Positions 6,013 through 40,077 of a stretch of 64,000 nt of DNA are shown piece by piece (position 1 is the stretch's first letter; each line of letters starts with the position of its first letter). A program made the position numbers and the translations under genes. The notes beneath the pieces are model-generated. The model did no database searches, was not told where the DNA came from, and worked only from the letters and a program-made list of their open reading frames with translations. This DNA is from Armatimonadota bacterium (GTDB lineage: Bacteria > Armatimonadota > Fimbriimonadia > Fimbriimonadales > Fimbriimonadaceae). Location: NCBI GenBank assembly GCA_025360125.1, contig JANYCU010000034.1, positions 1-64,000 of the forward strand, given 5' to 3'.

Positions 6013-9000
6013 CTAACTTCCAGAAGCTTGAATATTGGACGTGAACGAATAAGAGCCTGATCCGACCTGGAAAACGTCATAACCGGGTTCGCTACGCAAG
6101 AACTTCACGCCCTTGGCACTTGATGCCTCGGATAGCCCTTCGCGAACTTTTCTGGCGCCGCCCGTCGGAACATAAACCGTCGCCGTCGTATTCGCCGGAA
6201 CCGTGATCGAGGTCGTTAAATCCATTCCCGACCTTTTCCAAGAAGACTCAATTCGCCCGTTCACGCTGTCGTAGTGAGACTTCACCCAGGTCAAGTCATT
6301 GGCGACCGACGGTTTTACGACAAACTTCTTAAATCCTGGGCCCGCAGGATCGGGACGAATTCCGCCTAACCCTTGGTACAGCCAAAAGCCAATACACCCA
6401 AGCGTCGGGTGGTTGTACGACCCGTCTCCATTCCAAGCTTCCCACAGCGAAGTCGCTCCAGAGTTGATCATGTGCAGCCAGCCTGGATAATCTTCCTGAG
6501 TCAACATTTTGTAGGCCAGGTCGTCGCGGCCATTCTCCGCCAAAGCGTGAAACACGTAAAGCGATCCCACCATTCCCGCACTAATATGCCCCTTTCGTGG
6601 GCCGTCGATGCTCTCAACCAAACGGTCAATAATAAGCGACTTCGACTCATTTGGAGCAAGGCCTAGGGTGAGAGGCAAAGCCTGGGCAGTTTGACTATCC
6701 TTGGCGTAAAGCCCGGTTTCCCGGTTAAGAAACTTGGCGTTATATGTCGACTTAACAGATTCAGCTTTTGACCTATAAGCGGTGGCATCCGCTTCTTTTC
6801 CTAGCAAATGAGCAACTTGGCTGATAATCGATGAGCCATAGAATAGTGCCGCCGTCGAAGTCTGCTCGACGGGAACGCGTCGTCCGCCTCCGCCTGCGCT
6901 GTCATCCAGCCAGTCACCCAGTCCCCATGAAACAACATTGCCCTTCGCGGTCGAACTCAGATAATCGACGTACGCCTTCATTGCCGGATACCCCTCAGCC
7001 AGAACCCGCTTATCGCCGTAGTTCAAATACAACTTCCAAGGAGCAAAGACAATAGCTCCGCCCCACCACGGGTCCGCCATTTCTCCCGGCGAGCCGGCGG
7101 CCCGCGTCCGTCCCCAGCCGCTGGTCGGAACAATGTCGGTCACATGTCCGTTCGCGTCTTGGGCGTCCACCATGTCGTTAAACCATTTGCGATAGAACTG
7201 GGGAGTGTCGAGGTTGAAGAACCCGGTCTCCATATCCACGCACCCGTCATCCATCCAGCCCATTTTTTCTCGCTGAGGACAGTCGGTCGGGATGCTATGG
7301 AGGTTGTTCAAATACGCACGGACGATCAGGTTTTGCACCAGATTAAGGCGGTCATTCGAGCAACTGAATGACCCGGCCACGGCGGGATCAGTGGTGACCC
7401 ATTTGCCGCTTAACGAGTCGAGCGTCGGTTTTTCGGTCAGTCCAGTAACCTCAACGTATCGAAACCCGTGATAGGTGAATCGAGGTTCAAACGTGTCACG
7501 CTCACCACTCAAGATGCATTCATCGGTTTGGAATCGGCCATAAGTGTGGCTAGCCGTATGGTGCATGTCGGCTAAACCATCGGGCGTGAGGGCCTCGTTA
7601 TAGCGCAGGGTCACCTTGGTGCCCTTGGGTCCGCGGGTTGTCAACGTGGCCCAGCCTGCAATATTCGTCCCGAGGTCAAAAACATAAACTCCCGGCTTCG
7701 GCTCCTTCACCGAGATAGGTTTGATCGATTGTCGGACTCGGATTGGAGGTAACTGCTGCGAGGTTAACATCCCTTTCGGTTCGTCGACCACGGTAACTGG
7801 TTTCCAAGTTGGCATACCGCGCGTGAAGTCGACAGTCTCGCCGCCGCGAACGCAGTTAAATGAAATTTGACTCTCGCCCCATTTCCAAGACTCGTTTGAA
7901 ACCACCATTTGCGAAGTTCCATCGGAATACTCAACCTTGAGGTGAAACAATGCTCGAGGCGAAGCGGACCATGGAGCCTTTTCGAATCCGAAAAGGTCAG
8001 GCGTCGCGAGGTTAAACCAACCGCCTCCGAGCAGGATTCCTAGTTCATTTTTGCCTTGCTTTAGCGCTTTCGTGACGTCGTATGTCACATACAAGATCCG
8101 CTTGTCGTAATCAGTAAAACCTGGGTCCAAGACGTGGTCACCAACTTTCTTGCCGTTGATCGATAGTTCGTAATAGCCAAGCCCACAGATAAATGCGGTT
8201 GCTCGCGTCACTTGCTTCTTGACCGAGATGTCCTTTCGAAGCTGAATCGCGGCGTTCTCAGGCTGATCCGCCCGACTTGATTCCTTCAGCGATGCAAAGA
8301 CTCCATCGGTGAGGCGCCGTTTGTTCCAATCCGAATTCTCCACGCTGTCAAAAGCAGTGACCGGAGCGTGTAGGGCGACATTCGTGTTGCCAGAGAAGAC
8401 TTCGAACTCCGAAAGAGCAAAACAGAACGGCTCGGGGCCATTACCCCGGTTCCATAGCTTCGTTGCGGTTACTCGAACGTAGCGAGCCTTGATTCCTTTA
8501 CCATGAAGGCGAACGGACTCACCATGAGGATTGGGAAAGTCTTGATCGGTATGATCGACAATCATCCTCCGATCGCTGAATTTCGGATCATCCGAGACAT
8601 CTACTCGAAATCGGATTGGGAAACCAAAACTATCTTTCAGCGAAAACCCAGGCGAAACTGGTGAGTGAAGCATGATGTCGTCAATCGATTTTGCTGAACC
8701 TAAATCAAGTTGAACCCACTTTGTCGCGACTTGAGCCTTTGACTCCAAAGCGTGATATCCGTACAAAACGGGCGAACGAGTGTAAAAGTGCTCCGCAGTT
8801 GCTCCGATCCATTTGGCTTGCCAGTCTTCGGACGAAAACAGTCCGGTTGTAAACCTGGCCGCTTGACTCCATTCCGAGGCTTTTCCCGCCCGGTCCCACG
8901 CTCGAACCTTCCAAAAACATGCTATGTTCAATTGAAGGTATTTGCCCATATAGACGACGTGAGCCGACTCATCAGAAATCGTCTTTTCAGAATTCCAAAG

Positions 9001-9249
9001 GTCAAACTTGTTCGCCATAAGGTTCTCAATTGAACTAGAAACCCCAATTTGGTACGCCGTCTGAATTTCGTCGCGAACGTGCGATTCGAACCACCATCCA
9101 AACCGTGGGTGCTGATGGTCGATTCCCAGGGGCGCCGACTGATATTCGCACTGCAATCGAACCGGACTTAGGGCAAAACTCATAGCGGATCCACAAACAG
9201 TCAGCAGGATTCCCGCGAGGCGAACAAGAGCCAAAATGGCATTCCTCAT
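6013..9249 (-). CDS. Secreted alpha-L-rhamnosidase (GH78) with inserted F5/8 type C-like domain
   Basis: 1078 residues from ATG 9249; a TTG three codons upstream is an alternative. Signal peptide at the N-terminus. An Ig-like rhamnosidase N-terminal domain is interrupted by a discoidin (F5/8 type C)-like segment at about residues 170-310. Then come the carbohydrate-binding-like domain with WFNLATPDLFG, the (alpha/alpha)6 catalytic barrel with DCPQREKMGWMDD near residue 650 (the GH78 hallmark), and a C-terminal beta domain. Predicted role: release of terminal alpha-L-rhamnose from plant glycans or glycosides outside the cytoplasm. It ends 2 nt from the convergent CPBP gene. Confidence 0.88.
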   Translation of the reverse strand: MRNAILALVRLAGILLTVCGSAMSFALSPVRLQCEYQSAPLGIDHQHPRFGWWFESHVRDEIQTAYQIGVSSSIENLMANKFDLWNSEKTISDESAHVVYMGKYLQLNIACFWKVRAWDRAGKASEWSQAARFTTGLFSSEDWQAKWIGATAEHFYTRSPVLYGYHALESKAQVATKWVQLDLGSAKSIDDIMLHSPVSPGFSLKDSFGFPIRFRVDVSDDPKFSDRRMIVDHTDQDFPNPHGESVRLHGKGIKARYVRVTATKLWNRGNGPEPFCFALSEFEVFSGNTNVALHAPVTAFDSVENSDWNKRRLTDGVFASLKESSRADQPENAAIQLRKDISVKKQVTRATAFICGLGYYELSINGKKVGDHVLDPGFTDYDKRILYVTYDVTKALKQGKNELGILLGGGWFNLATPDLFGFEKAPWSASPRALFHLKVEYSDGTSQMVVSNESWKWGESQISFNCVRGGETVDFTRGMPTWKPVTVVDEPKGMLTSQQLPPIRVRQSIKPISVKEPKPGVYVFDLGTNIAGWATLTTRGPKGTKVTLRYNEALTPDGLADMHHTASHTYGRFQTDECILSGERDTFEPRFTYHGFRYVEVTGLTEKPTLDSLSGKWVTTDPAVAGSFSCSNDRLNLVQNLIVRAYLNNLHSIPTDCPQREKMGWMDDGCVDMETGFFNLDTPQFYRKWFNDMVDAQDANGHVTDIVPTSGWGRTRAAGSPGEMADPWWGGAIVFAPWKLYLNYGDKRVLAEGYPAMKAYVDYLSSTAKGNVVSWGLGDWLDDSAGGGGRRVPVEQTSTAALFYGSSIISQVAHLLGKEADATAYRSKAESVKSTYNAKFLNRETGLYAKDSQTAQALPLTLGLAPNESKSLIIDRLVESIDGPRKGHISAGMVGSLYVFHALAENGRDDLAYKMLTQEDYPGWLHMINSGATSLWEAWNGDGSYNHPTLGCIGFWLYQGLGGIRPDPAGPGFKKFVVKPSVANDLTWVKSHYDSVNGRIESSWKRSGMDLTTSITVPANTTATVYVPTGGARKVREGLSEASSAKGVKFLRSEPGYDVFQVGSGSYSFTSNIQASGS

Positions 9250-9441
9250 GGTCTCCAAACATTACCCCAGACCAATAGAGGGTGTTGCACGGATTCGGAA
9301 GACTCGGATGTGCTGCCTCGGTAGCTCACGATGGAACTAACTCCAGGCTTAATACCGCTAACGGAAATCCAGGACTAAGCTACCAAGGCTAAAGAAAGTT
9401 GGGCGGAGATCATCCATGCAGCACCCTCAATGACCCGGTAC

Positions 9442-9447
9442 GATAAT
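9442..9447 (+). promoter_or_regulatory. GATAAT -10 box, leaderless-type
   Basis: Lies 7 nt before the second of two tandem ATG codons (9455) and 4 nt before the first (9452). This favours the second ATG as the real start. Confidence 0.5.
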
Positions 9448-9451
9448 CAAC

Positions 9452-10135
9452 ATGATGTTGACCACGTTAGTGTTTGCAACTATTCTTCAAGCATCGCCAC
9501 AAGACTATATGGCGAATGTGGTCACCGAGCTCAAAAAGGATTGGCCAAAAAATAGAATGGTCGAAATTGTTTGCCACGGGCACAGCGTCCCCGCCGGATT
9601 CTTCAAGACTCCCGAAGTACAGACCATGAACGCTTATCCAAACCTCCTCAAAGCAGATCTCTCGGCACGGTTTCCTCATGCAGTCATCAATGTAACCGTC
9701 ACCGCAATCGGCGGTGAAAACTCAATCTCAGGAGAAAACCGTTTCGCCAAAGATGTCCTATCGCGCCATCCTGACGTGGTCACCATCGATTACGCCCTCA
9801 ACGATCGAGGATTCCCTGCCGAGGTTATCAAGTCGGCGTGGAAATCCATGGTATCTCAAGCCAAAGCCCAAAACGTCAAGGTAATTCTATTGACTCCAAC
9901 CCCCGACCAATCGGCCAAAATGGACGACCCAAACGACCCGATCAACATCCGCGCCGAAGAAATCCGGGCTCTGGCCAAAGCCGAGGGTGTTGGCCTTGTT
10001 GATAGCCTCGCTGAATTCAAATCGGCAATCCAGTCCGGGACCAAACTTCCCGACCTCATGTCGCAGGTCAACCACCCAAACCGAAAGGGGCACGAGCTTG
10101 TAGTCAACCAATTGATGAAGTGGTTTCCCAATTGA
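9452..10135 (+). CDS. Secreted SGNH/GDSL-type hydrolase (esterase)
   Basis: 226-227 residues with a short signal peptide (MLTTLVFATILQASPQ). SGNH blocks are visible: GHSVPAG in place of GDSL (block I, catalytic Ser), GGEN (block II region), ALND (block III Asn) and NHPNRKGH (block V with Asp/His replaced by Asn and His). This type of enzyme removes acetyl or other acyl groups from polysaccharides. The GHS and NHP variants make the catalytic triad slightly unusual. Start is 9452 or 9455. It lies just upstream of the large six-hairpin enzyme and probably works with it. Confidence 0.78.
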   Translation: MMLTTLVFATILQASPQDYMANVVTELKKDWPKNRMVEIVCHGHSVPAGFFKTPEVQTMNAYPNLLKADLSARFPHAVINVTVTAIGGENSISGENRFAKDVLSRHPDVVTIDYALNDRGFPAEVIKSAWKSMVSQAKAQNVKVILLTPTPDQSAKMDDPNDPINIRAEEIRALAKAEGVGLVDSLAEFKSAIQSGTKLPDLMSQVNHPNRKGHELVVNQLMKWFPN

Positions 10136-25560: not shown

Positions 25561-27036
25561 ATGAGCGCACCAGCCGGACAAAGCGTAAACCACCTCGTCC
25601 GAAGAATTGGTCTTGGCAGCGGAATCGCGGTCGTGGTCGGCAGCACCATCGGCTCGGGGATATTCAAGAGCCCATCCGGCATCGCCACGAAGCTGCCCGG
25701 CCCGTTACCCATGCTCCTCATCTGGGTGATCGGAGGTCTATTCGTACTTTGTGGTGCCCTTACCCTCGGCGAAATCGGAGGCGCATTCCCTTATTCAGGT
25801 GGGCTTTACGTTTATGTTCGGGAAGCCTATGGCCGACTAGTTGCTTTCCTCTTTGGTTGGGCACAACTAGTCCTCCTCAGACCTTCTTCGATCGGTGCAG
25901 TCGCAATCGTTTGCGCACAATACGGGCTGAAACTAACCGGACTTCAAGAAGGCAAACCAGGATTCAATGAATGGACGGCCGCTATCGCCATTCTCGCCGT
26001 CGCCGTCGTGACCATCGCGAATGTGTTGGGAGTAAAAGTTGGAACCTTCATCCAAAATATTACGACCCTGGCCAAAACTGGTGGACTACTCGTCCTGATC
26101 ATCCTCGCGTGCGTCCTTCGCTTACCCCACGCTTCCGCGCATTTCACGCCGGCCATGCCGCCCGGCAGCTTCTCAATTCCGATGTTTGGTTTAGCCCTTG
26201 TTTCAGTGCTCTGGGCCTATGACGGTTGGGCGGATGGCTCCTATGTTGGGGGCGAGATGATCAATCCGCGAAAGAACGTTCCCCGGGCAATCATTCTCGG
26301 CACCCTCGGAGTTATTGGTATCTATCTCCTTGCAAACCTCGCGTACCTTTCCGTCTTCTCGGTAACCCAAATCGCCAAAAGCGAAGTGATCGCCGCCGAC
26401 ACGATGTCCACCCTCGTCGGCAACTGGGGCGTCACTTTCATTGTAGCAACCGTTGTGATTTCCACATTCGGCACCCTCAATGGGACGATGCTCACCTCGC
26501 CAAGAATTTTCTTCGCGATGTCCGAAGACAAGCTTTTCTTCGAGCCCCTCGCCCGCGTTCACCCCCGCTACAACACTCCCTATATCTCTGTCATTCTGGC
26601 CGGAGTATTGGGAACAATCTATATCCTCGCTGCAACCATCTGGAGCGGCAGCAAAGCATTCGGAGCGCTTACCGACGCATTCGTCATTGGAATCGTCCCA
26701 TTCTATGCCTTGTCGGTTGGTGCGGTCTTTGTGTTCCGCAAGCGTGAAAAGCAGAGGTTATCGACAATGACCCCGAGTGAAATTGAAGACTCCATGATCG
26801 ACCCAATTGAAGCAGGACATCCAGAAACCCATCCACACCCATACCGACCGTCGTTCCGCACTCCGCTTTTCCCCGTAACCCCGATCATCTTCATCTTATC
26901 GACCATCTTTCTCCTGGCAAACTCGCTGATCGATCACGATTCAAGGATTCCGACGATCATAACACTTGGACTTGTACTCGTGGGAATTCCAATCTACAAA
27001 TTGACCTTGGCCATGAGGGCCAGTCAAGGATCTTAG
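25561..27036 (+). CDS. APC-superfamily amino-acid permease
   Basis: 491 residues with about 12 membrane helices. TM1 carries the unwound GSTIGSGIFKSP motif that binds the substrate amine/carboxylate in APC transporters. Helix 6 region FGLALVSVLWAYDGW and the following GGEMINPRKNVPRAI cytoplasmic loop are characteristic of the LAT/serine-threonine exchanger-like branch. It probably imports or exchanges amino acids, which fits the nearby peptidase and hydroxyproline-type enzymes. The stop codon shares 4 nt with the convergent usher gene. Confidence 0.85.
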   Translation: MSAPAGQSVNHLVRRIGLGSGIAVVVGSTIGSGIFKSPSGIATKLPGPLPMLLIWVIGGLFVLCGALTLGEIGGAFPYSGGLYVYVREAYGRLVAFLFGWAQLVLLRPSSIGAVAIVCAQYGLKLTGLQEGKPGFNEWTAAIAILAVAVVTIANVLGVKVGTFIQNITTLAKTGGLLVLIILACVLRLPHASAHFTPAMPPGSFSIPMFGLALVSVLWAYDGWADGSYVGGEMINPRKNVPRAIILGTLGVIGIYLLANLAYLSVFSVTQIAKSEVIAADTMSTLVGNWGVTFIVATVVISTFGTLNGTMLTSPRIFFAMSEDKLFFEPLARVHPRYNTPYISVILAGVLGTIYILAATIWSGSKAFGALTDAFVIGIVPFYALSVGAVFVFRKREKQRLSTMTPSEIEDSMIDPIEAGHPETHPHPYRPSFRTPLFPVTPIIFILSTIFLLANSLIDHDSRIPTIITLGLVLVGIPIYKLTLAMRASQGS

Positions 27037-29636
27037 TTTCCGATCGGAACTTTGATCCCCTTAAGGACTTCGCCAAAGTGGGCAAATTGGGGTTTCTTTG
27101 CTAAGATATTTCCGTCGCCATCAACAATCACGATATCGTATTGGGCGGGCCAAACCCGACTAAAAATAAAATCTCCGTCTGGTCCAACCAGGCTTCGACC
27201 CACGCACTTGCCAGAATGGTCCATCAGTCGCGCCTCCGCTCCGGTCCATGACTTCCACTCGCCTATCTTTTGGGTTACATTTCCTTCTAACTCAGCGGTG
27301 GCAACGACGGGGAGGTCAATCTGAACCGTCTTTCCCGATCGAAGCAAAATCAAAAGCTCATCACTACCAGCCACCCATGAAGGGTCCAGTAGCGAGTCAT
27401 CATCAAGAATAACCGAGACTTCCTGACCCGACCGCAGTCCCCCGACAAGGCAAATTCCCTTTTTATCAGAAAGAGTAGGCGCTCCCCGGCCCGAAATTCT
27501 CAACCCAGCATCCGGCAATAGCTCGTCTCCAGCATCGTATTTTCCAGACATGTTTTTGTCCAAAAAGATCCTGGCACGAATCGTCGCTCCCATCGCCGTA
27601 TTCGGCGCACGGAAATCATAGCGGCTTCCCGAATCGAGATTTCCTATTCCCGTAGAAACCAAGAATCCTAGTCGAACATTCTCATTCGTCGCCCGAAAAT
27701 CAAGACCCACCGCGAGTGAGCCTACCGGGCGATAAATCGCGCCATAAAGGGTTGACTGATTTGAAATCCGCTCGTGTTCAAGTCCATATTGCAAGCGAAA
27801 ACTCGAAGAGAAATTTTGGTCAAATGAAAGTCGGCTCAGTCGGTAGTATTCGGTCGACCCAAATCCGTAACCAAACTCAAATCGAGCCACTGACGATCCA
27901 AATTCGTGCCGGAAGGTTGTCAGTCCGAAATTCTCTTCAAAGTCTCTGCCAAGGTGAGCAATCACGTCGTTCGTCAACGACACATTACCAAACATTTTGT
28001 TGCCGCGCGCCCGAAAATAAGTCGTCGGATTGGAACCATTGTAACGGTCAAGACTGAAGCTATAACTGACAGGTTCAAGGCCTCCGGCCAGTCCATCAAA
28101 CCGAAGCTGCGAAAGCGACGTAATATTCGTGCCCAGCCCTCGCAAGTCGCCAATCTGACCAGTCGACGTTTCTTGAGTTAAGGACAATGTAGAATTGCCT
28201 ATTCGTTTCGATAGCCCGAGCGAAATTGCCCGTGAACCATCATCGGAGGCAATTGCTTCGACCTTGCCCAGAGTCGTTCCGAACCAAGCGTTGTAGCCTA
28301 TTCCTAAATATCGAGAGCGATCAATTTGAAAGGCCAAGCCCGTCAACCATGACGATTCTGATACTCCCCGGTTCAATTCAAGACCAAATTCTGAAGCCCG
28401 TGGGCGGGCAAATACTCCAGTATCCGATCCAAACAAACGTTCACCTGTTTTGCATGCAAAAGCGTTGTATCGCACCTCGCCGCTTCCCAGCCGTAAGGCG
28501 GTTCCATAGAGAGTCCGACGTTTTTCGGAAACCTGACCGGTCGCGTCAACCGTCACGATGGTGAAGACATTCGCTCCCTCGTGGCATCGGATGCCTGGGA
28601 ACTTATAGTGTCCCTTGTCATTCGCCTTCATCCTTGCTTGGCACTTACCTTCAAAATACAATTCAACAATCGAATTAGCCGGGGCATCACCTTCAATATC
28701 GCGATTCCAAGCGAAATCTGCACTTTGAATTGCCGCATTGGACACGGAAATTCCCACGCCGCTATTTCCGGTCTGGATCAGCGAAATCGGCGGAACGACG
28801 AGGTCTCCCACCTCAACTTTGCTCGCATGCAATGAGCCTAAAAGCCCATTCCGAGGATCTGTTCGGCCAAGAGTCAGATCAGCCCGAGGACGACCAAAAT
28901 AGTCGGTGGAAACCGAATACTTGGCTCCCATATACAGCAGATCACCGTATCCTTCGAGCGACGGTGTCGTGACATCGTTGGTTCGGTTTACTCCTAGTCC
29001 AACTATCTTCCTTAGTCGAAAGTCCATCTGTGGAAGGGTGATCAACTCATAAGGACTCGAAATTGGCTTTGCCTTCTTGGCGGTTGTTGATGCCGCTGGC
29101 ACAAATGCCTCGGCCGCTTCTTCAGTGATTTCGCGCGGGATATTGAGCAAGAGGTCGGAAATGACGTCTACTTCAAGTCGATCCATCTTCCAAATGAAGT
29201 CGAGTTTGGCCCACTTGCAAAATAACGATGATTCGATGTAAAGATCACCGTCCTGCACAAAACAAGCGGCCGGATCAAAAGTAACTGCCCTTCCTCGACA
29301 AATACCTGAACCTGATTTGAAGTCCAAGTTGACTCGGTCTTTCGGCGTTGCCAAAAAGCCTGTTATCTTTCGCTCAACTAAATTCACTTGGAGGCGATAA
29401 CCCAACGACACCCCAACATTGCGAATGGGAACAAATTTTCTACCCGCAGAGTCTTGCAAGATGGTTACAAAGCTATCGATTCGACGGTGAGCGTAAACAA
29501 AATCGAAAAGCATCAATTCGTAGGCTGAATTCGGGCTTTTGTTGGCAACAGTTTCCTGCTGATCCACCTGCGCCATTAGAAACGCGGGCGTTAATCCAAC
29601 CAACCAAAGGGCTAAAAGCCACTTGAGAAAACGCAT
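27033..29636 (-). CDS. Chaperone-usher-type outer membrane usher-like protein
   Basis: 867 residues with signal peptide (MRFLKWLLALWLVGLTPAFLMAQ). Residues about 35-170 form a stalk-like N-domain. About 240-380 is an usher-like region with VGDLVVPPISLIQTG, EGDAPANSIVELYFEG and an Ig-like plug. About 400-700 is a long run of alternating-residue beta strands (barrel). The C-terminus has a Ca-binding-like DKNMSGKYDAGDE (SdrD B-like) and a carboxypeptidase-regulatory-like domain. Usher assignment rests on architecture plus the adjacent PapD-like chaperone and DUF4402 subunit genes. Starts 7 nt after the chaperone stop. Confidence 0.7.
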   Translation of the reverse strand: MRFLKWLLALWLVGLTPAFLMAQVDQQETVANKSPNSAYELMLFDFVYAHRRIDSFVTILQDSAGRKFVPIRNVGVSLGYRLQVNLVERKITGFLATPKDRVNLDFKSGSGICRGRAVTFDPAACFVQDGDLYIESSLFCKWAKLDFIWKMDRLEVDVISDLLLNIPREITEEAAEAFVPAASTTAKKAKPISSPYELITLPQMDFRLRKIVGLGVNRTNDVTTPSLEGYGDLLYMGAKYSVSTDYFGRPRADLTLGRTDPRNGLLGSLHASKVEVGDLVVPPISLIQTGNSGVGISVSNAAIQSADFAWNRDIEGDAPANSIVELYFEGKCQARMKANDKGHYKFPGIRCHEGANVFTIVTVDATGQVSEKRRTLYGTALRLGSGEVRYNAFACKTGERLFGSDTGVFARPRASEFGLELNRGVSESSWLTGLAFQIDRSRYLGIGYNAWFGTTLGKVEAIASDDGSRAISLGLSKRIGNSTLSLTQETSTGQIGDLRGLGTNITSLSQLRFDGLAGGLEPVSYSFSLDRYNGSNPTTYFRARGNKMFGNVSLTNDVIAHLGRDFEENFGLTTFRHEFGSSVARFEFGYGFGSTEYYRLSRLSFDQNFSSSFRLQYGLEHERISNQSTLYGAIYRPVGSLAVGLDFRATNENVRLGFLVSTGIGNLDSGSRYDFRAPNTAMGATIRARIFLDKNMSGKYDAGDELLPDAGLRISGRGAPTLSDKKGICLVGGLRSGQEVSVILDDDSLLDPSWVAGSDELLILLRSGKTVQIDLPVVATAELEGNVTQKIGEWKSWTGAEARLMDHSGKCVGRSLVGPDGDFIFSRVWPAQYDIVIVDGDGNILAKKPQFAHFGEVLKGIKVPIGN

Positions 29637-29643
29637 AAGATCT

Positions 29644-30471
29644 TCAACGACTGTGAATAACTAGAAGCTTGGATACAGGGTTTTTCCGCCGATCAGTCTC
29701 AATAAACTGGACTTCGAAGTCACCAGCACCAAGGCTCGACGGACTCTTCGATAGGCCAACGACCATCGATCGAGTCGGGTTAGGGAAATAAACTGCAACA
29801 CCATTCGACTGTCCCACGAGAACGGCTTTGCCACCGTTAGCAGGTTTAAACCGAACGAAAACGTCGCCCCGAATAGAAGCATTGCCATCGCGATGAAGCG
29901 AGAATTTGACTGAATTAGCTTTGTGATCGATAGAGCCGTCCGAAAGCTGGGCCGAAGCGGAAACGTTCCCCATTCGAACGACAATTGGTATCGTGATTAA
30001 TAATCGAACGTTCAGGTTAGTGCTCAGGACCTTCTCTCCTCCTTCCGTTTGCTTTGGCGTTCCCGGGCGAGTCAGCGGTTCAAATTCCAGGTGTGACCGA
30101 AACTCTCCATCAATCGAGCCCAGCGGAAGGACCGATAGAATTCGAATCTTCTGCGATGCCCCGGGGGCCAAAATTATTTCCTTCGGAGAGAGACGAAGCG
30201 AAGAGATTGCTGAATTCCTGGTCCCGTCAGAAGTCTTTTTCAATACTCCTTCGGGCGACATGTTCATGTCAACCAGGTTCAAACGGTACCGAACCGTGCT
30301 TTGGCCAGAGTTAACCACGATGATAGTTCCGCCCCGGCTCTTTTCATCAAGAGTCAATCGGGTGGGCGAAATCATTAGGTCACCAAGTCGTTGGGCACTG
30401 CCTAATGCCGGCGTAAGACTGAGGATTCCAATAATCAGGAATCGAGTCTTCGTTGAAAGTAAATGGACCAC
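29644..30471 (-). CDS. PapD-like periplasmic pilus chaperone
   Basis: 275 residues. GTG at 30471 is chosen because GGAGG stands at the right distance upstream (about 30481-30485) and gives a compact signal peptide (TKTRFLIIGILSLTPALGSAQ). Domain 1 begins with LGDLMISPTRLTLDEKSRGGTI and continues with YRLNLVDM, SLRLSPKEIILAPGASQKIRIL and EFRSHLEF, the pattern of FGL/archaic-type pilus chaperones. A second Ig domain follows. Expected role: donor-strand chaperoning of the subunit encoded at 30682 and delivery to the usher encoded downstream. Confidence 0.72.
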   Translation of the reverse strand: MVHLLSTKTRFLIIGILSLTPALGSAQRLGDLMISPTRLTLDEKSRGGTIIVVNSGQSTVRYRLNLVDMNMSPEGVLKKTSDGTRNSAISSLRLSPKEIILAPGASQKIRILSVLPLGSIDGEFRSHLEFEPLTRPGTPKQTEGGEKVLSTNLNVRLLITIPIVVRMGNVSASAQLSDGSIDHKANSVKFSLHRDGNASIRGDVFVRFKPANGGKAVLVGQSNGVAVYFPNPTRSMVVGLSKSPSSLGAGDFEVQFIETDRRKNPVSKLLVIHSR

Positions 30472-30604
30472 GTTGTTTTTCCTCCGAACGATCAAGGGCA
30501 AGAAAATAGGAAGCCCTAATTTAGTTATCGGTAAAAATACTAGGATTACTACAGGGAAGATTTGAACTCAAACTAACTCGCCGCGAATGAGAAACTTGAA
30601 GGGC

Positions 30605-30652
30605 TGGAAAAATGAAATTGGCCAGCCCATCCATTCAGGAGGAGCTGGCCAA
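30605..30652 (-). terminator. Intrinsic terminator/attenuator after pilus subunit gene
   Basis: On the minus strand TTGGCCAGC and GCTGGCCAA form a perfect 9-bp stem (30644-30652 with 30618-30626), followed by TTTCATTTTT. It lies 30 nt after the subunit stop and before the chaperone gene. Partial read-through would give many subunit transcripts and few chaperone/usher transcripts. Confidence 0.7.
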
Positions 30653-30681
30653 CATTCGTTGTCCAAATGAAGCTAGTTAGC

Positions 30682-31194
30682 TTATTGGTAATCGACGGTT
30701 AAGTTGATTGTTGCCGTTTGGGTCGTGATCGTGGCGGTTGACGCAACGTCAAGGGTTCCGCCGAGCTTGATCGTCAAATGACCGGAGCCATCCAACTGAC
30801 CAGTTCCCGAGTTTGCGGATCCGTTGATCGACATCGCCGAAATGCTGACGCCCGAACCGCTAAACGCTCCGACCGAAACGCTAAATGAAACGTTACAGTT
30901 AGCCGCGCCAGTGATCGAATAATCACCTGCGTTTCCGTCGCTAAAGCTAAATCCTGCGCCACTCGAGAGTGAAGTCGCTCCCGTAGTGTCATCCAGTACG
31001 TAAGTCGCCGTGCCACTAGCAGGAACAACCACTCGTCCCCAGTTTGTGTCGGCATTGCGAGTGATTGAAATTGTTGGCAACAGCGTAACTGTCGCAGTTC
31101 CAGTGGAATCTGAACCCTGGGCACCCGAAAGAGCCGCTACGAGTAATAGGATTCCAACCGATCCGAATCGATTAATTTTCTTTGTGTAAAACAT
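30682..31194 (-). CDS. DUF4402-type secreted pilus subunit candidate
   Basis: 170 residues with signal peptide ending ALSGAQG. The mature part is Gly/Ser/Thr/Ala-rich with short beta strands: SITRNADTNWGRVVVPASGTA, a central ITGAANCNVSFSVSVG, SISAMSINGSANSG, LGGTLDVAS and a terminal INLTVDYQ. This matches the DUF4402 layout (d-x-x-W/F-G-x-x-x-P start, v-G-g-x-L-x-v middle, V-x-Y end), a fold of small beta-sandwich surface subunits. A single Cys is present. The ribosome-binding site AGAGG is at about 31202-31206. First gene of the locus. Confidence 0.72.
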   Translation of the reverse strand: MFYTKKINRFGSVGILLLVAALSGAQGSDSTGTATVTLLPTISITRNADTNWGRVVVPASGTATYVLDDTTGATSLSSGAGFSFSDGNAGDYSITGAANCNVSFSVSVGAFSGSGVSISAMSINGSANSGTGQLDGSGHLTIKLGGTLDVASTATITTQTATINLTVDYQ

Positions 31195-31210
31195 TTTTTC
31201 TACCTCTTAG

Positions 31211-31300
31211 ACCCGGCATCGAAATGCGATTGGATCCATTTATCCCTGTCTGCCAAGTTCCAGAGATTGAGGGGCAATTTTCCCAGCATATATGCCGGGT
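31211..31300 (-). promoter_or_regulatory. Structured leader of pilus subunit gene with two exclusive pairings
   Basis: In the minus-strand leader, ACCCGGCAT (31292-31300) can pair with a nearby ATGCTGGG (31282-31289, one mismatch) or perfectly with ATGCCGGGT (31211-31219), which sits directly upstream of the ribosome-binding site. Such mutually exclusive helices are typical of riboswitches or attenuators. No known riboswitch consensus (GEMM c-di-GMP, cobalamin, TPP) was recognised. Confidence 0.45.
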
Positions 31301-31334
31301 TTTATGTTTTTTAGGGGACAGTGGCACGCCTGGC

Positions 31335-31529
31335 CTAATCGTGTTTTGCTTGGCGTTTGGCCAATTCAGCAAGCAAATCCCACCGCTGATCGTCGGTCAT
31401 TTTGAGCCAATTTGCGACCTCGTGACCGCTTCTCAGACATCCCGAGCAAACCAACGATTCATCAATTCCGCAGTGCCGGACGCAAGGAGACGGACACGGC
31501 AAAGTCAGTTGAACCGAGGTCTGCTCCAT
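31335..31529 (-). CDS. DUF1289 small Cys-rich protein
   Basis: 64 residues from ATG 31529. The sequence PSPCVRHCGIDESLVCSGCL followed by R-S-x-x-E-V-A-x-W and M-T-D-D-Q-R matches DUF1289, with its four conserved cysteines. Function of the family is unknown; a metal or Fe-S site is assumed from the Cys spacing. A perfect TATAAT ends 5 nt before the ATG. A TTG two codons upstream is the alternative start. Confidence 0.78.
   Translation of the reverse strand: MEQTSVQLTLPCPSPCVRHCGIDESLVCSGCLRSGHEVANWLKMTDDQRWDLLAELAKRQAKHD

Positions 31530-40001: not shown

Positions 40002-40077
<76 letters not shown>

Follow-up and report, generated by a model that had tools for sequence, protein, structure and literature searches.

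A three-gene locus of an Armatimonadota bacterium very probably encodes a minimal, divergent chaperone-usher pilus system, and what is new about it is an overlooked usher family. The locus lies in a stretch of 64,000 nucleotides that was analysed at its full length, the window. On the minus strand, to which all coordinates of the locus refer, it comprises in this order a gene for a DUF4402 subunit (31194-30682; 170 aa, with a signal peptide at approximately residues 1-26), a gene for a PapD-type periplasmic chaperone (~30471-29644; 275 aa) and a gene for an 867-aa outer-membrane protein (29636-27033). All three open reading frames were present in the order and on the strand given in the initial annotation, and each of the proteins opens with a signal-peptide-like stretch. 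NCBIfam provided no name for any of the three. Judged from the sequence, the chaperone more likely starts at the GTG codon at 30471 than at the alternative TTG codon at 30501; a GGAGG site precedes the GTG codon. The gap between the chaperone and usher genes is 7 bases, and that between the subunit and chaperone genes is ~180-210 bases. The latter contains a strong hairpin with a folded core of ~-28 kcal/mol, followed by the T-rich TTTCATTTTT (30608-30652). An automatic scan did not report this hairpin, probably because its stem is mismatched. It would probably act as a partial terminator, giving more subunit than chaperone and usher. Profile searches of the genome showed that the locus is single-copy, with one DUF4402 protein, one chaperone of this family and no protein matching the Pfam usher model PF00577. 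No second subunit or tip adhesin was found elsewhere in the genome, in agreement with the initial annotation, which had listed a single candidate subunit and no tip adhesin. The same genome encodes an Omp85/BamA protein, which fits the need of an outer-membrane barrel and a cell with an outer membrane.

The well-characterised ushers FimD and PapC have a 24-stranded barrel with a plug after strand 6. Judged from its predicted structure and its sequence relationships, the 867-aa protein is an usher, very distant from the known ones. The AlphaFold2 model, built on a 37-sequence alignment, was of moderate confidence (mean pLDDT 74, pTM 0.56) and showed an N-terminal domain (residues 40-160; 29157-29519), six barrel strands (residues 203-299; 28740-29030), a small beta domain as the plug (residues 311-378; 28503-28706), 18 more strands (residues 388-666; 27639-28475) and two C-terminal beta domains (residues 683-779, 27300-27590, and residues 781-865, 27042-27296). 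When this model was compared to the PDB with Foldseek, ranks 1-17 were all FimD or PapC, with E between 1.6e-26 and 1.5e-12. The highest-ranking protein other than an usher was SdrD (E 2.8e-9), matched through the C-terminal domain, and the first porin followed at E 5e-6. VIA-align aligned residues 202-667 to the PapC pore and gave a Z-score of 21.4 over 404 residues, compared to at most 14.0 for non-usher barrels. A porin or TonB-receptor identity was rejected, since both score far below ushers in the Foldseek and VIA-align comparisons. Thus, the chaperone-usher-type assignment of the initial annotation was borne out by the predicted barrel and plug, as it was by the subunit fold discussed below. 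Its description of the SdrD-B-like and carboxypeptidase-regulatory-like domains as extra was not, since the AlphaFold2 model and hhalign place them at the normal positions of usher C-terminal domains. Of the two C-terminal domains of the model, the first, CTD1, matched usher C-terminal domains (hhalign E 7e-5 for this one comparison), and the second resembles SdrD_B and CarboxypepD_reg (Pfam match at 785-846), two models found in 37/37 and 36/37 members of the usher family, respectively.

The sequence relationship to known ushers is far less apparent from Pfam. In the 867-aa protein PF00577 gave no match, let alone one over its curated cut-off; the matches obtained with other models were weak, below cut-off, and concerned Cu_amine_oxidN1, which marks the N-terminal domain, Big_6 and SdrD_B. 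A profile comparison of an 11-member family alignment with six known ushers using hhalign gave a probability of 98 over 541 columns (E 1.6e-13, a value that applies to one comparison), and reversed and column-shuffled controls remained at or below 0.6%. When the comparison was done by domain, the signal was located in the plug, the barrel and CTD1, and the N-terminal domain had no sequence match to the N-terminal domains of FimD or other known ushers. In FimD, this domain recruits chaperone-subunit complexes. When the PDB was searched with the usher profile by sequence alone, no usher came up, and the matches were limited to SdrD-like C-terminal domains. So faint a sequence similarity is still compatible with the protein being an usher, because EcpC, an accepted alternative usher that was included as a single-sequence control, scored below the family profile against the canonical set.

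Among the known ushers, the family profile was closest to archaic-like PF00577 ushers (hhalign probability 98.6, versus 56 for classical ushers), the archaic-like label of these proteins (L099, L101 and L137) resting on the likeness of their chaperones to CsuC. This proximity would be expected if the locus were an ordinary archaic (sigma-clade) system that has drifted below the Pfam thresholds and does not form a distinct lineage, an explanation that we consider rather unlikely. It is at odds with the finding that just 1 of 37 diverse family members touches PF00577 (E 0.039) while the match between classical and archaic-like ushers remains strong (probability 99.8), and with the fact that the subunits are DUF4402 proteins. 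The chaperone is informative for the same question. PapD_N was not reached in Pfam by the chaperone of the window and was found in 30 of the 32 members of its family (best E 8.7e-9), through which the window protein is classed as PapD-type. The family profile matched FimC, YehC and EcpB (hhalign E 7e-6), and it also matched the chaperone that lies beside a PF00577 usher in the same phylum (4e-11), as an archaic origin would predict. Also in line with such drift, the invariant residues Arg125 and Tyr228, together with Arg194, look equivalent to Arg89, Tyr196 and Arg174 of CsuC, which form its carboxylate anchor (PMC4654587). However, Arg38 is invariant too and sits in the classical Pro-Thr-Arg motif of strand A1, and archaic chaperones have no analogue of this arginine (PMC4654587). 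Because the Arg38 motif and the anchor-like Arg125/Tyr228 pair are both invariant, the chaperone family seems to mix classical and archaic features.

The subunit was the only one of the three proteins to pass a Pfam cut-off, with PF14352 (DUF4402) at E 8.6e-10. The HMM check proposed with the initial annotation therefore held for DUF4402, held for PapD_N in the chaperone family though not in the window chaperone itself, and failed for PF00577. Judged from the model and from sequence features, the DUF4402 subunit is pilin-like, with a predicted incomplete Ig fold and a donor-like N-terminal extension. Its AlphaFold2 model (pLDDT 84) had FimG, the PapG pilin domain and FimF as best PDB matches (Foldseek E 2.2e-3, probability 1.00), and the top PDB rows were almost all chaperone-usher pilins, though the scores were moderate. 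VIA-align gave a Z-score of 8.5 to FimG over 111 residues, just above the level where chance arrangements occur, and 7.5 to the Csu pilin. Comparison of DUF4402 profiles with FimA-type pilins by hhalign gave no match, so that structure was needed to link DUF4402 to pilins. Residues 39-170 aligned to FimG residues 13-144, which leaves a 12-residue N-terminal extension at the position of the FimG donor strand. The candidate donor strand, GSDSTGTATVTLLPT (residues 27-41; 31072-31116), is the N-terminal extension of the mature subunit and lies ahead of the FimG-aligned core. At the other end, the C-terminal strand (30685-30726) ends in Tyr-Gln, a pilin-type motif with a penultimate Tyr; FimA, FimI and FimF likewise end in YQ. 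Within the DUF4402 family, Tyr or Phe is found at position -2 in 62/66 members and Gly at -14 in 60/66, a pattern also seen in FimA, FimI and FimF; the window subunit has Thr at -14. None of the scanned subunits matched the SCPU models (spore-coat-U/Csu-type) in Pfam, and all of them match DUF4402. In the searchable literature, outside which most subscription papers lie, no paper mentions DUF4402. The analysis suggests a pilin function for this uncharacterised family.

From the computed folds, the gene linkage described below and the relatedness in sequence to known ushers and chaperones, we infer the following assembly route. The DUF4402 subunit would enter the periplasm without the final strand of its Ig-like fold, and the PapD-type chaperone would lend it a strand. 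The chaperone-subunit complex would dock on the outer-membrane usher, the plug, as a gate of the pore, would leave the 24-stranded barrel, and donor-strand exchange would follow, with the N-terminal extension of the incoming subunit displacing the chaperone strand in the previous subunit. A thin fibre of one repeated subunit would thereby be pushed out to the cell surface, where it would probably serve in attachment or biofilm formation. Conceivably, the barrel instead exports a single, non-polymerising DUF4402 protein and no fibre is made, in line with an usher N-terminal domain that is not recognisably that of FimD. We regard this as very improbable, as it leaves unexplained a dedicated PapD-type chaperone, a pilin fold with an N-terminal extension ahead of the core as in FimG, the pilin C-terminal motif, and a plug inserted as in ushers.

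Relatives of the locus were searched for in the same phylum and beyond. Full-length ushers of this family were present in 7 of the 291 available genomes of the phylum; usher-profile matches occurred in 145 genomes, but outside these 7 the match covered just part of the profile, for the most part the C-terminal domains, and such genomes were excluded. In the genus of the window, 4 of 19 other genomes carried the usher (21-32% identity), in each case together with a chaperone gene and DUF4402 gene(s) arranged as in the window. Outside the genus, one other genome of the same family had the usher and kept the triplet, and outside that family one genome of the phylum carried it, on a short contig on which chaperone and subunit were not detected. 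A tblastn search of plasmid sequences recovered this protein from Novosphingobium, Polaromonas, Sphingopyxis and Pseudoalteromonas, and in the six annotated plasmid loci the usher always followed a chaperone-like gene and small genes for DUF4402 or hypothetical proteins. When 84,980 species genomes were scanned with a single short pattern, 204 relatives were obtained, of which 80 were kept. These were mostly from Burkholderiales, Halomonas and Marinobacter, with single members from Pseudomonas, Phenylobacterium, Desulfuromonadaceae and Geobacteraceae, and one 'Candidatus Eisenbacteria' MAG. The contig search used a tight usher alignment, the alignment of all 11 first relatives being too diverse. 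The ushers of the plasmid loci are named hypothetical, SdrD B-like or 'carboxypeptidase regulatory-like' protein in the databases, and under such misleading names the system is widespread in Proteobacteria.

Among the loci with enough upstream DNA, which come from named genomes and nearly all from Proteobacteria, the chaperone gene lies immediately upstream of the usher gene on the same strand in 54 of 57, and a DUF4402 gene precedes the chaperone gene in all 54 linked loci (exactly two such genes in 49). This linkage of the three genes far exceeds chance. The initial annotation had named the lack of a barrel or chaperone fold, or of linkage in related genomes, as outcomes that would count against it; none of these occurred, and the linkage extends from these loci to the genus and family of the window. 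It had also expected the locus to widen the chaperone-usher family beyond Proteobacteria. This was not borne out in that form, since the usher falls outside PF00577, Proteobacteria carry its family far more often than the phylum of the window does, and archaic chaperone-usher systems are already known in Cyanobacteria and Deinococcus-Thermus (PMC4654587). With 7/291 genomes and a higher frequency in Proteobacteria, the locus is better described as a minimal one-subunit member of an overlooked lineage that is not unique to its phylum. Beyond subunits, chaperone and usher, and apart from synteny at the genus level, no accessory gene beside the related loci was clearly common across genera. A possible sensor or signalling gene recurs near 12 related loci, and two loci (L093 and L094) are rearranged, with the chaperone gene and extra DUF4402 genes downstream of the usher gene on the opposite strand. 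In the usher tree, the window protein forms a long, fully supported branch with the ushers of one congener (G017) and of the one genome from the same family (G137). A second branch, closer to the proteobacterial ushers, unites the remaining three congeners with the more distant member of the phylum, and the long branches make the deep order of the tree unsure. The patchy distribution, and the fact that a single genus has two lineages, point to old transfers or losses. The sole PF00577 usher above cut-off among the 291 genomes (L137:940-3219, genome G245, with an estimated contamination of 6%) adjoins a chaperone related to the window family.

The two DUF4402 genes of most related loci differ in the length of the segment between signal cleavage and a conserved LxFG motif. 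With cleavage sites taken from a simple home-made predictor, this segment is mostly 19-32 residues (mode 22) in the first subunit and mostly 8-17 residues (mode 10) in the second, so that the second subunit of the two-subunit loci (L018-L097) is without the ~10-12-residue N-terminal extension of the first. A subunit without a donor extension could not plug into another subunit, as is expected of a tip, which suggests that the donor-bearing first gene encodes the shaft and the donor-less second gene the tip subunit. The window and its congeners have donor-bearing subunits only, and their fibre would need another initiator or none. A Novosphingobium locus (L008) contains, directly 3' of the usher gene, an unannotated 327-aa ORF (8637-9617, plus strand) with an extra N-terminal domain of ~150 residues followed by DUF4402, the layout of a two-domain tip adhesin. 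Single-subunit chaperone-usher systems with a coat-type output are known, and the single subunit and missing tip adhesin of the window genome could thus indicate that linear fibres form an amorphous coat or capsule, as with the Caf1/F1 antigen, and not a discrete pilus rod. We think this unlikely, as most relatives have two subunits, of which one has a donor extension and the other does not, the combination required for a fibre with shaft and tip; the assembly chemistry of such a coat would in any case be the same.

Returning to the pilus assignment, the locus can be compared to three groups of known loci. With type 1 and P pili of E. coli (FimACD-FGH, PapCD) it shares the usher architecture, the pilin fold and the C-terminal Tyr motif, whereas usher identity is ~12-14%, the N-terminal domain differs by sequence and there are no fimF/G/H-like genes. 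The archaic pili, such as Csu of Acinetobacter, have the same subunit-chaperone-usher organisation in addition to the similarities in usher profile and pilin fold and the apparent one in chaperone Arg/Tyr pattern given above, and are likewise found beyond Proteobacteria (PMC4654587). They differ in that the window usher misses PF00577, its single subunit is a DUF4402 protein that is not accompanied by a tip adhesin, and its chaperone family retains the Pro-Thr-Arg motif. The same three families in the same order are found in loci annotated as DUF4402, 'molecular chaperone' and 'carboxypeptidase regulatory-like domain' in Novosphingobium, Polaromonas, Massilia, Halomonas, Marinobacter and others. 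These proteobacterial loci usually have two DUF4402 genes where the window has one, and the product of the second gene has no donor extension. In their usher plug there is a GWD motif, which is missing from the branch of the window.

There is, in our estimate, an even chance that these loci constitute a fourth major chaperone-usher lineage, which would have branched off earlier than the classical, archaic and alternative lineages or alongside them. It would span Alpha-, Beta- and Gammaproteobacteria, Desulfuromonadaceae/Geobacteraceae and the phylum of the window, build two-part DUF4402 fibres from a donor-bearing shaft and a donor-less tip, and use a new N-terminal recruiting domain in its usher, with the window as the most stripped-down, single-subunit form. 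In the searchable literature, to which subscription papers mostly do not belong, we found no description of the usher family. Surveys of ushers and classifications of pili depend largely on PF00577. PF00577 proteins were absent from 18 of the 21 tested genomes that carry the family, and since the family escapes this model, these 18 would be scored as having no chaperone-usher pili. With its three genes the locus is a minimal system that lends itself to reconstitution, and its usher family provides a distant outgroup for studies of usher evolution.

Several minor observations were made along the way. A SPOR domain, which binds peptidoglycan, occurs in 2 of 37 ushers, candidates being the longer ushers L061 and L067, and SPOR-domain genes flank the Pseudoalteromonas locus L011 (3353-3838 and 8655-9293). 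The region upstream of the subunit gene gave no Rfam match to a riboswitch or known RNA, permissive limits included; it contains an inverted repeat, CCCGGCATATATGCTGGG, within 31195-31335 (minus strand), for which there was no Rfam match either. Just upstream of the subunit gene, at 31336-31527 (minus strand), lies a small unlisted ORF of ~63 aa with the Cys-rich sequence CPSPCVRHCGIDESLVCSGC, which we take to be DUF1289-like. The sole RNA gene found in the window is a tRNA-Ala (GGC) at 40002-40077 on the plus strand.
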